Source: Phycisphaerae bacterium (GTDB lineage Bacteria > Planctomycetota > Phycisphaerae > SM23-33). Taken from it: DNA of 49,194 nucleotides. The position numbers and the translations under genes were made by a program. The DNA lies in NCBI GenBank assembly GCA_021108335.1, contig JAIORC010000132.1, forward strand, positions 1-49,194, written 5' to 3'. The notes beneath the pieces are model-generated. The model was not told the origin of the DNA and did no database searches. It was given only the letters and a program-made list of their open reading frames with translations. Positions 1-49,172 of this stretch are shown piece after piece. Every line of letters starts with the position of its first letter. Position 1 is the first letter of the stretch.

Positions 1-442
1 ACCCGACCCCCCAGAACCAATCGCCGAAAGTTCGCGTGATGGTCATGGAAAGAATCGCGACGAACGCGGCGATGGTGCTGCTGCGACACTGCCGCCACAG
101 CAGGGCGTACATGCCGCAGAGATACAGAAACCCCACCACCCCAGCCATCACGCGAAACGGCAGCAGCAGGTCGGTATAGCTGGTGGGGGTCAGTACCATC
201 TCCATCATTGAGAGAAATACCGGCGTGTGCAGCTCCCGCAGCCGCCCCTGGGCGTGCACCTCACCGTAGACCGAGTCGTACTTCATCAAGTCCGGGTCGT
301 GTCGCCGGGCGGCGGCAGCGGCGAAATTGAGTTGCTCGTCACTGAAGCGGTCATCCTGCCAAGCGAGATAGCCGCTGGTAACAGCGACCGCCGCGAAGAT
401 CACGATGGACAGTATATGTTTTGATGCCGGCGCCGGCTTCAT
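1..442 (-). CDS. Membrane protein, partial (runs off the left edge)
   Basis: Reading the complement from ATG at 442 gives an open frame to the window edge (MKPAPASKHILSIVIFAAVAVTSGYLAWQDDRFSDEQLNF...), with hydrophobic TM-like segments. Absent from the ORF track because it has no stop inside the window. Confidence 0.6.
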   Translation of the reverse strand, partial: MKPAPASKHILSIVIFAAVAVTSGYLAWQDDRFSDEQLNFAAAAARRHDPDLMKYDSVYGEVHAQGRLRELHTPVFLSMMEMVLTPTSYTDLLLPFRVMAGVVGFLYLCGMYALLWRQCRSSTIAAFVAILSMTITRTFGDWFWGVG

Positions 443-2241: not shown

Positions 2242-2405
2242 GTAGGCCGGGTCTTGACCCGGCAATTGCATGGCACATGCAACAAGTTCGTCCCATTCGG
2301 GGCAGTAGCGGCGAAAAACACGTTTTTCCATAGACGTGTTATCGGAGGGGATTTTCATGTAAGAAGGCTGTCGCCTTCTTATCGCCGGGTCAAGACCCGG
2401 CCTAC
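2242..2405. repeat. REPIN-like doublet, CCGGGT family
   Basis: GTAG-GCCGGGT-CTTG-ACCCGGC ... AAGAAGGC-TGTC-GCCTTCTT ... GCCGGGT-CAAG-ACCCGGC-CTAC. Confidence 0.93.
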
Positions 2406-2521
2406 CAGAAACGGGTAAAAACACATGGCCCCCAAGGGACCATGCCACCCGACATTAGACATCTTGGGCATTAAACATTGGACATTGGTCTATCGGGCGG
2501 GTGCTCCCGCCCACGCGGAAA

Positions 2522-15763: not shown

Positions 15764-17401
15764 ATGAAGATTATAAAGAAATTGGCTGTTGTCTGCCTAT
15801 TGTTGTTTGTCGCCTGGCTTGTCTACAACGCCACCAATGAGAAAAAGAAACCCGATCTCGACTCAGCAATCGCAACCCGCAAAAAAGCCGTCGAGCAGAA
15901 CCCAAATGATGCCGATGCCCACTACAACCTCGGAAATGCGTTATTTGACAAAGGCGACATTACCGAAGCTATCGCGGCATACAAGAAAGCTATCGAACTG
16001 AATCCGAAGTTTGCCGAGGCCCACTGCAATCTCGGGCGTGCGTTGGAGGACAAAGGCGACGTTGCCGGAGCAATCGCGGCATACAAGAAGGCCATCGAAC
16101 TGAATCCGAAACTTGCCATGGCCTACTCCAATCTCGGGTGTGTGCTGAAGGACAAAGGCGACTTTACCGGAGCTATCGCGGCCTGCAAGAAGGCCATCGA
16201 ATTGAATCCGAAGTTTGCCATGGCCTACTACAACCTCGGGAATGCGTTGCATGACGACGGCGACGTTGCCGGGGCTATCGCGGCGTACAAGCTGGCCATC
16301 GAATTAAATCCGAAGGATGCCGAGGCCTATAACAATCTCGGAAATGCGTTGCATAACAAAGGCGAGTTTAGCGGAGCAATAGTGGTCTTGAAGAAGGCCA
16401 TCGATCTGAACCCGAAACTTGCTGAAGCCTACTACAACCTCGGGGTTACACTGAAGAAGCAGGGCGATCTTATTGATGCAATCATAGCTTATCAGAAGGC
16501 CGTCGAACTGAATCCAAAGTATGCCGATGCCTACCACAACCTCAAGCGTGCGATGGAAGGCAAAGGCGACATTACCGAAGCTATTGCGATTGCAACCTAC
16601 AAGAAGCTCATTGATCAGAATTCGAAGGATGCCGAGGCCTACTACGACCTCGGAAATGCATTGTATTACAAAGGTGCCGATGCCGGGGCAATCGCAGCCT
16701 ATAAGAAGGCCGTCGAACTGAATCCAAAGTATACCTGGGCCTACAATAACCTCGGAAATGTGCTAATAAGAAAAGGGGACTTTGCCGAGGCAATCGTGGC
16801 CCTTAAAAAAGCCATCGAACTGAATCCGAAATTTGCCATGGCCTACTGCAACCTCGGAAATGCGTTGTATAACAAAGGCAACATTGCAGGGGCTATCGCA
16901 GCGTACGAGAAAGCCATCAAACTGAATCCGAGGTTTGCCGAAGCCCACTGCAATCTCGGGTGTGCGCTGGATAACAAAGGTGATCTTGTTGGTGCTATCG
17001 CGGCCCTCAAGAAGGCTATTGATTTGGATCCAAAGTTTGCCAAGGCCTACAATAACCTTGGAAACGCATTGAATGACAAAGGCGACATTGCCGGATCTAT
17101 CGCGGCGCACAAGAAGGCCATCGAGCTGAATCCGAAGTACGCCACAGCCTACAATAACCTTGGGTATGCGCTGAGAAAAAAGGGTACCTTTGCCGAGGCA
17201 ATAGTGGCTCTTAAGAAAGCCATTAAGCTGAATCCGAAGCTTGCCTGTGCCTACAATAACCTCGCCGAGGCATATTATTACAAGAAGGACTATGACAATG
17301 CGTGGAAAATAGTAGGGCTTGCCCGGCGGTTGGGGTTGGGCAAAGGCCTCGATCCGAAATTCATAAAAAAACTCGAGCAAGCCTCCGGCCGAAAAAAATA
17401 A
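15764..17401 (+). CDS. Membrane-anchored tetratricopeptide repeat (TPR) protein
   Basis: N-terminal hydrophobic segment ([19 protein letters not shown]) followed by more than a dozen 34-aa repeats of type [31 protein letters not shown]. Confidence 0.93.
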   Translation: [545 protein letters not shown]

Positions 17402-22585: not shown

Positions 22586-22630
22586 GTAGGCCGGGTCTTG
22601 ACCCGGCGAAAAGAAGGCGAAAGCCTTCTT
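22586..22630 (+). repeat. Solo CCGGGT REP-like hairpin plus AAGAAGGC-GAAA-GCCTTCTT hairpin
   Basis: GTAG-GCCGGGT-CTTG-ACCCGGC 22586-22607; second stem 22611-22630, 14 nt before the galK start. Confidence 0.9.
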
Positions 22631-22644
22631 TTATGAGAGCCCCT

Positions 22645-23796
22645 ATGAATATCGAAACCATTAAAAAGACGTTTGCCAAGACCTTTGGCCCTAAACCTGC
22701 CGGCGTGGTTGCTGCGCCCGGCAGGGTGAATCTTATTGGTGAGCATACCGATTACAACGACGGCTTTGTTTTGCCGATAGCTATCGAGCTGCGGACGCTG
22801 GCGGCCTGGTCGCCTCGCGACGACGGCAGAATTGCCCTGGCCTCGGTGCAACAGCCGGGGCGAAACGTCGAGCTTGACCTCTGCGAACCCATCGAAAAGG
22901 CCGAGCCGAAATGGGCGAACTACCCCAAAGGCGTCGCTGCCGGCCTGCGGGCAAAAGGCCTGGAGCTGCCGGCTTGCAACATACTCTTCGACAGCTCGGT
23001 CCCAATCGGCTCGGGCTTGAGCAGTTCCGCCTCGCTGGAAGTCGCTGCCGGGCTGGCTTTGCTGGCTGCCGCGGGCGGGGCCATGGACGGCTACGAGCTT
23101 GCGTTGCTCTGCCAGAAGGCGGAACACGAATTCGCCGGCACGCCGTGCGGCATCATGGATCAGGCGATCTCGGTGCTGGGCACCGCCGGCCATGCGATGC
23201 TGCTGGACTGCCGCGACGGTTCACGCAAACAGATTCCGTTCGGCTCGCCGGAAACGGTGCTGCTGGTCTGCGATACGCAGGTAGCCCATGAACTGTCCGA
23301 CGGCGGCTACGAGGCCAGGCGGTGGCAGTGTTACTCGGCTGCGGAAAAGCTGGGCATCCCCGCTCTCCGCGACGCCGACGGGCAAACCGTCGCCAAAGTT
23401 CTGGCGGACGAGAATTTCACCGAAAAGGAAAAAATGCGTGTGCGACATGTCGTAGGCGAAATCGGCAGAACCCTCCAAGCCGTCAACGCCCTCAACGCCG
23501 GCGACCTGGCAGCCTTCGGCAGGCTGATGTACGAGTCGCACGAATCGCTGCGGGACGACTACGAGGTCAGTTGCGAAGAGTTGGACGAAATCGTCGAAAT
23601 CGCACGCAGCCTCGACGGCGTACTCGGAGCACGGATGACCGGCGGCGGATTCGGCGGCTGCGCTATCGTGCTATGCCAAGCCGATCACGCCGCGAATATC
23701 CAGACGACAATCGAAGATAAGTTCCTCGCGAAATTCTCCAACCCCTGCCGCATCTTCCCCACCCACGCCGCAGCCGGCGCGGAAATCATCGAGTAA
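22645..23796 (+). CDS. galK: Galactokinase
   Basis: APGRVNLIGEHTDYNDGFVLPIAI signature, PIGSGLSSSASLEVA, GARMTGGGFGGCAIVL. Start 22645 (ORF extends to 22633). Confidence 0.93.
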   Translation: MNIETIKKTFAKTFGPKPAGVVAAPGRVNLIGEHTDYNDGFVLPIAIELRTLAAWSPRDDGRIALASVQQPGRNVELDLCEPIEKAEPKWANYPKGVAAGLRAKGLELPACNILFDSSVPIGSGLSSSASLEVAAGLALLAAAGGAMDGYELALLCQKAEHEFAGTPCGIMDQAISVLGTAGHAMLLDCRDGSRKQIPFGSPETVLLVCDTQVAHELSDGGYEARRWQCYSAAEKLGIPALRDADGQTVAKVLADENFTEKEKMRVRHVVGEIGRTLQAVNALNAGDLAAFGRLMYESHESLRDDYEVSCEELDEIVEIARSLDGVLGARMTGGGFGGCAIVLCQADHAANIQTTIEDKFLAKFSNPCRIFPTHAAAGAEIIE

Positions 23797-25531: not shown

Positions 25532-25694
25532 GTAGGCCGGGTCTTGACCCGGCAATTGCATGGCACATGCAACAAGTTCGTCCAATTCGGATTAGCAGCG
25601 GTGAAAAACACGTTTTTCCAAAGATGTATCATCGGAGGGATTTTCATGTAAGAAGGCTGTCGCCTTCTTATCGCCGGGTCAAGACCCGGCCTAC
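25532..25694. repeat. REPIN-like doublet, CCGGGT family, second copy
   Basis: Near-identical to 2242-2405 along its whole length, same terminal GTAG/CTAC hairpins. Confidence 0.93.
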
Positions 25695-25727
25695 AAAAAA
25701 CGGGTAAAAACAAGACCTGTTGGGTGG

Positions 25728-34682: not shown

Positions 34683-34764
34683 GTAGATTACGCAACTCGT
34701 TGCATGACAATTTTCCGGCACACCTTTCCACAATTCCTGTTATGCAGCAAGCTGCATAACCTAC
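34683..34764. repeat. REPIN-like doublet, TTATGCAA/G family, left arm degenerate
   Basis: Left GTAGATTACGCAACTCGTTGCATGAC, right GTTATGCAG-CAAG-CTGCATAAC-CTAC (34739-34764). Confidence 0.75.
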
Positions 34765-40480: not shown

Positions 40481-40566
40481 GCGTAGGTTATGCAACTTGT
40501 TGCATAACAATTTCCCGGCATGTCTTTCTGTAATTTCTGTTATGCAACAAGTTGCATAACCTACGC
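40481..40566. repeat. REPIN-like doublet, TTATGCAA family, complete
   Basis: GCGTAG-GTTATGCAA-CTTG-TTGCATAAC (40481-40508) ... GTTATGCAA-CAAG-TTGCATAAC-CTACGC (40539-40566). Confidence 0.92.
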
Positions 40567-49059: not shown

Positions 49060-49172
49060 GTAGGCCGGGTCTTGACCCGGCAATTGCACGGTACGTGCAA
49101 CCATTTCGTCCCACGCGGTGCAACTATTTCATTTATATGGGTGGCATGGCTTGCTTGCAAGCCATGTGTTTT
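49060..49172 (+). repeat. Solo CCGGGT REP-like half-unit plus handle hairpin CATGGCTTG-CTTG-CAAGCCATG-TGTTTTT
   Basis: GTAG-GCCGGGT-CTTG-ACCCGGC 49060-49081; TTGCACG-GTA-CGTGCAA; hairpin 49145-49166. Confidence 0.9.

Follow-up and report, generated by a model that had tools for sequence, protein, structure and literature searches.

The window, which is the whole analysed stretch of 49,194 nucleotides, is contig C5 of the draft genome (G000) of a Phycisphaerae bacterium, assembled in 409 contigs with a total of 3.78 Mb and 91% complete. It contains two closely similar units bounded by inverted palindromes, which raises the question of what these repeats are and from what they were formed. A sequence-only reading had described them as REPIN-like and placed copy 1 at 2242-2405 (164 bp) and copy 2 at 25532-25694 (163 bp), and both positions were found to be correct. 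Each copy begins with GTAGGCCGGGTCTTGACCCGGC, and the exact reverse complement of this sequence forms its other end. The inner hairpins of the two halves are unlike each other, as had been reported, and the solo halves are present at 22586 and 49060. The similarity that was said to extend beyond the unit borders is real, with AAGGGTGTCGCGAAGC upstream and ACGGGTAAAAAC downstream. The two copies are closely alike, but "nearly identical" was a slightly generous description of 93% identity. All four sites in the window, two doublets and two solo halves, are intergenic. The features are listed below, with LE and RE denoting the left end and the right end.

2242..2405, minus strand (RAYT sense): REPIN copy 1, 163-bp class, 164 bp, with LE at 2405 and RE at 2242
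2242..2263, plus strand: REP of the right end (RE), GTAG followed by GCCGGGTC-TT-GACCCGGC
2266..2282, no strand: RE-specific inner hairpin TTGCATG-GCA-CATGCAA, as in the right end of the RAYT element
2291..2300, minus strand: trace of the 3' end of the RAYT coding sequence (class consensus CCGAATTGGA; copy 1 differs at one position)
2356..2358, minus strand: ATG at the RAYT start-codon position, directly after the LE hairpin
2360..2381, no strand: LE-specific inner hairpin TAAGAAGGC-TGTC-GCCTTCTTA, as in the left end of the RAYT element
2384..2405, minus strand: REP of the left end (LE)
2409..2422, minus strand: LE-side flank GTTTTTACCCGTTT of copy 1
22586..22631, plus strand: solo LE, REP and AAAGAAGGC-GAAA-GCCTTCTTT hairpin, immediately before the galactokinase ORF (start at 22633)
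25532..25694, minus strand: REPIN copy 2, 163 bp, identical over its full length to G000:C223:715-877
25698..25711, minus strand: LE-side flank GTTTTTACCCGTTT of copy 2
49060..49100, plus strand: solo RE, REP and TTGCACG-GTA-CGTGCAA hairpin, near the contig end

The solo LE (22586-22645) adjoins the galactokinase gene so closely that the ATG occupying its RAYT start-codon position (22633) shares the reading frame of the galK ORF and provides it with a start 12 bases upstream of the ATG that is probably native (22645).

Two-ended REPINs and the RAYT element

The units are REPINs: they consist of inverted REPs with outward GTAG/CTAC, occur in high copy number, fold into strong hairpins and have a cognate RAYT with the same REPs in the genome. 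The identity proposed by the earlier reading is supported by these properties. The REP core was found at 155 sites in the genome with at most two mismatches, as compared to none for the reversed control pattern. With end-specific patterns, right ends were found at 79 sites and left ends at 76, and the control patterns gave none. A DNA search of the genome with 2242-2405 gave 40 full-length places that were scored, namely the unit itself and relatives with 88–93% identity, among 109 candidates. The single-strand fold of the unit reaches −52 kcal/mol (z = −10). Double-change cells numbered 24 over the full structure, with almost all of them in the LE helix, as compared to 8.6 in shuffles, and this excess of compensatory changes indicates that the hairpins are under selection.

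The Y1 transposase family has eight matches in the genome. The gene on contig C170 is the only Y1 gene flanked by the window REP, which is found on both sides and in REPIN orientation; none of the other REP families checked flanks it. This RAYT element (G000:C170:10-639, locus L037) is approximately 630 bp long, with REPs at 10-31 (+) and 618-639 (−). The RAYT matches the NCBIfam profile NF047646 (REP_Tyr_transpos) with 181 bits against a cut-off of 80. It also aligns to the structure of E. coli TnpAREP, 4er8 (E 1.2e-36), including the HxH and catalytic tyrosine motifs, here VLPEHLH (HUH) and VDYIHYNPVKHG, respectively. The left end of the element has the order REP, AAGAAGGC-GATA-GCCTTCTT hairpin and ATG, and the right end the order TTGCATG-TGC-CATGCAA hairpin and inverted REP. 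Judged by this arrangement, each half of a window unit corresponds to a different end of the RAYT element, the side with the AAGAAGGC hairpin being the LE and the TTGCATG side the RE.

The REP core was found in two of the 398 genomes of the class, the host and G013, and the RAYT of G013 is 79% identical to the C170 RAYT. The C170 frame is open from a TTG inside the REP, and a small indel shifts the expected ATG out of frame (L037 57-75), the start region being ATGGGACTATCTCC in C170 and ATGGGAAATTACCTC in G013. Because of this shift, the C170 RAYT may be a decayed or inactive copy, or the sequence may contain an assembly error near the contig edge. The search of the genome for a second full-length copy of the element found none. 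Of the more distant RAYTs in the family, each has a GTAG hairpin of its own on its flanks, which fits the co-evolution of RAYTs and REPs as described in PMC8266576 and PMC6006769.

All of the 65 complete head-on doublets in the genome, counting the RAYT element itself, have an LE on one side and an RE on the opposite side (33 and 32 in the two orientations), and neither LE-LE nor RE-RE doublets were observed. Independent assembly from single REPs would be expected to yield like-to-like pairs in about half of the cases. In G007, which is of the same family and has an unrelated REP, 15 of 15 doublets were left-right when classified by best-scoring end types, and the four examples inspected agree. 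The pairing rule suggests that the mobilised unit is the entire element with its two ends, rather than two independent REPs.

Other repeats were also observed. A second GTAG-tagged REP family, GTAGGTTATGCAACTTGTTGCATAAC, is present in the window at 34683-34764, 40483-40564, 39529 and 45722, and forms two inverted doublets of about 82 bp. The five copies of a third REP family, GTAGGGTGGGTGCTTGCACCCAC (window 15586, 17462, 23799, 24044 and 44263), are all single and on the plus strand. A family without GTAG, GGGTGCCATGCTTCTGCTTGCAGAAGCATG (window 8480, 22399 and 22541; L036 1090, 1157 and 1814), also borders a different gene for a Y1 transposase in the genome (G000:C207), and because of this position the two may represent a second repeat-transposase pair. 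The palindrome GGCACAGGTTTGCAACCTGTGCC (L035 1276 and 1958; window 27040) borders the match to the Y1 domain on contig C213 on both sides, and several REPINs of 199–244 bp have a similar palindrome nested within them. A 102-bp tandem repeat, for which eleven overlapping register positions are listed, lies within a 545-aa ORF at 15764-17293 of the window.

RAYT sequence inside the short forms

The doublets were sorted into length classes of 120–126 bp (approximately 125 bp, n = 6), 135–149 bp (n = 4), 161–165 bp (n = 45) and 199–452 bp (n = 9), in addition to the 630-bp RAYT form. Several of the 199–452-bp doublets contain other nested repeats.

The four elements of the 135–149-bp class all align without gaps to the RAYT 3' coding end, over 38–56 nt, and none of 500 shuffles of each did so. 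One of them (C195) was matched independently by a search with the RAYT protein (68% over 19 aa, E 5.6e-4). In this class, the ATGG of the start codon is joined to an internal ATGG of the RAYT gene, which suggests that the class arose by deletion at a short direct repeat. For the 125-bp class, the match to the start of the G013 RAYT was equalled in 0–2 of 1000 shuffles in three copies and in 33 of 1000 in the remaining one; the end of the G013 RAYT was also matched well by two copies (1/1000 and 6/1000 shuffles). In the 163-bp class, the consensus has matches to the start of the G013 RAYT (2/5000 shuffles) and, over ten bases, to the end of the C170 RAYT (3/2000 shuffles, or 87/5000 with laxer gap costs). 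The RAYT matches in this class are confined to the ends: the central part of approximately 40 nt lies outside them, and the 3' match is only 10 nt long. Since RAYT gene sequence is found inside several size classes, we conclude from these alignments that the REPINs are likely to have arisen from the RAYT element by internal deletion, and to have done so more than once.

MITEs of IS200/IS605-type elements are non-autonomous: they have lost internal sequence of a Y1-transposase element but retained its two ends. The host REPINs likewise keep both ends, which they share with the C170 element, and their interior is derived from the RAYT gene in the 135–149-bp and 125-bp classes, and at the ends only in the 163-bp class. 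They differ from such MITEs in having GTAG-tagged REPs in inverted orientation at their ends, and no fixed target of the TTAC type was seen in the flanks. Classification as an IS200/IS605 insertion sequence was rejected, with one full-length copy and flanks that lack a single fixed tetranucleotide.

We consider it very probable that the repeats are REPINs that arose as MITE-like internal-deletion derivatives of a RAYT-encoding element. The parental element of approximately 630 bp would have consisted of a GTAG-tagged REP with the AAGAAGGC/GCCTTCTT hairpin, the RAYT gene, and the TTGCATG/CATGCAA hairpin with the inverted REP. Loss of most of the RAYT gene between the ends would have produced at least three short forms, of approximately 125, 135–149 and 163 bp, the last of which would be the most amplified. 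The RAYT, as a predicted Y1/HUH single-strand nuclease, would recognise the GTAG-tagged hairpin in single-stranded DNA, cut beside the hairpin and rejoin the LE...RE unit at new sites, in trans. For other RAYTs, it is established that cleavage takes place at C|T next to the REP, and a guiding role of GTAG has been demonstrated for a Marinomonas RAYT (both in PMC8266576). By analogy, we infer cutting, strand transfer and transposition by the C170-type RAYT. In many host copies, CT immediately precedes the GTAG of the LE.

Several observations speak against a deletion origin, namely the out-of-frame ATG in C170, the single full-length copy, the confinement of the RAYT matches to the ends in the 163-bp class and the structure of the G013 REPINs, which are approximately 70 bp long and consist of the outer REP only, with neither inner hairpins nor a recognisable RAYT remnant. 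The G013 REPINs would fit an ordinary mode of formation, in which separately spread REPs were joined, the RAYT is an independent neighbour and the resemblance of the interior to the RAYT ends is coincidental. It also accords with this that RAYTs of other systems are apparently immobile as a unit and that REPIN spacers are less conserved, as reported for the systems in PMC3116915 and PMC6006769. However, joining of separate REPs is difficult to reconcile with end-specific inner hairpins paired as LE and RE in 65 of 65 doublets, and with the stretches of 38–56 nt from the RAYT coding region that four elements carry in the expected position and orientation. We therefore regard it as highly improbable.

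Flanks and recent spread

Copy 2 of the window is identical at 163 of 163 positions to C223:715-877 and 99.4% identical to the copy at C4:20700, and the flanks differ. An identical core within different flanks indicates that the core has recently moved or been exchanged. Recent dissemination of the REPINs is supported by these comparisons, as identical cores at unrelated loci are consistent with mobility. They also bear on the proposal that the host retains the units mainly because they serve it, as hairpins for 3'-end termination or mRNA stabilisation, so that their number reflects selection and not self-propagation. Such a role would suit the strong folding of the units and the apparently convergent genes that bracket both window doublets. 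The strict LE/RE pairing, the RAYT remnants and the identical copies at unrelated loci are, however, what would be expected of a transposon derivative and not of a terminator, which makes this proposal improbable.

Most copies of the 163-bp class have GTTTTTACCCGTTTYT before the LE side and AAAAACTGTTGCTTCGCG after the RE side, and no single fixed tetranucleotide emerged in the element flanks. The exact sequence GTTTTTACCCGTTT was located beside an element end in 37 of its 38 occurrences in the genome (35 LE, 2 RE). Mantel tests, which are limited by the short flanks, showed no relation between the similarity of cores and that of left flanks (r = −0.007, p = 0.53) and only a weak correlation with that of right flanks (r = 0.18, p = 0.07), whereas the two halves of the core are correlated with each other (r = 0.35, p = 0.002). 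In pairs of copies with more than 94% core identity, the left flanks are still approximately 82% similar. Imperfect matches to the left flank, preceded by GGTTCC, were also found away from elements, so that a pre-existing target context is possible. A search with joined flanks against the same genome for empty sites gave two weak junction-spanning matches, neither of them a clear empty site.

Two simple accounts of GTTTTTACCCGTTT are weakened by these results: a free target by the 37 of 38 exact copies beside an element end, and a sequence always travelling with the core by the Mantel test. Because flank similarity does not follow core similarity, the core may have been swapped in place, or the flank may be a pre-existing target. 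The decoupled histories of flank and core suggest either precise GTAG-to-CTAC movement or in-place replacement. It is possible, although we consider it somewhat unlikely, that the recent spread of the core mainly represents gene conversion among resident copies, older copies having been dispersed together with their flanks and their GTAG-CTAC cores having been overwritten in situ by subsequent exchanges; this would be compatible with a deletion origin. The Mantel results for both flanks and for the core halves, the left-flank similarity that persists at high core identity and the near absence of free exact GTTTTTACCCGTTT all agree with conversion. Against it, conversion tracts are not expected to span the core so exactly from end to end, the GGTTCC-preceded matches leave room for a pre-existing target context, and short flanks limit the test. 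More doubtful is a RAYT-mediated exchange of cores as exact GTAG-to-CTAC cassettes at occupied sites, by which the population would turn over in place and the old flanks would remain.

Repeats of the form GGGTGGCATGGTCCCC...GGGACCATGTGTTTTT (window 2424, 15536, 25722 and 28702) often abut the LE flank of a REPIN at GTTTTT.

Relation to known systems

REPINs and RAYTs have been described before (PMC3116915), as have paired unlike REPs in E. coli (PMC6006769) and ends with a REP and a second stem-loop in Pseudomonas (PMC3733652). The REPINs of Pseudomonas fluorescens SBW25, as presented by Bertels and Rainey 2011 (PMC3116915), resemble those of the host in being inverted REP doublets on a scale of approximately 100 bp, with high copy number, hairpins and one RAYT per REP type. 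The GI REPINs of SBW25 are described there as symmetrical with a less conserved spacer, whereas in the host REPINs each half has a hairpin specific to its end, remnants of the RAYT gene are retained, and a complete element that encodes the RAYT and shares these ends is present. The RAYTs of P. putida 607 and P. fluorescens 4255 (Di Nocera et al. 2013, PMC3733652) similarly have a GTAG unit and a second stem-loop at the ends of the Y1 gene, with hundreds of dispersed copies. In that account, the GTAG units are called degenerated and the second stem-loop unrelated, and the available text describes no transposase-gene deletion series.

The E. coli REPtron pairs the unlike REP types Y and Z2 (PMC6006769). 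The BIMEs and REPtron of E. coli, with Y and Z REPs, are also similar in that a RAYT lies between inverted GTAG REPs and that TnpAREP (4er8) is homologous; in the host, the unlike parts are instead second hairpins inside identical REPs. We know of no RAYT coding remnants inside BIMEs. A literature search covering sources other than subscription papers and preprints found no description of REPINs that retain RAYT coding sequence.

The REPIN/RAYT kind of system is already known, and the deletion series is new evidence on the origin of REPINs. Since the parental form, deletion forms with transposase codons and an amplified short form are present in one genome with the same pair of ends, this origin would be directly readable here.
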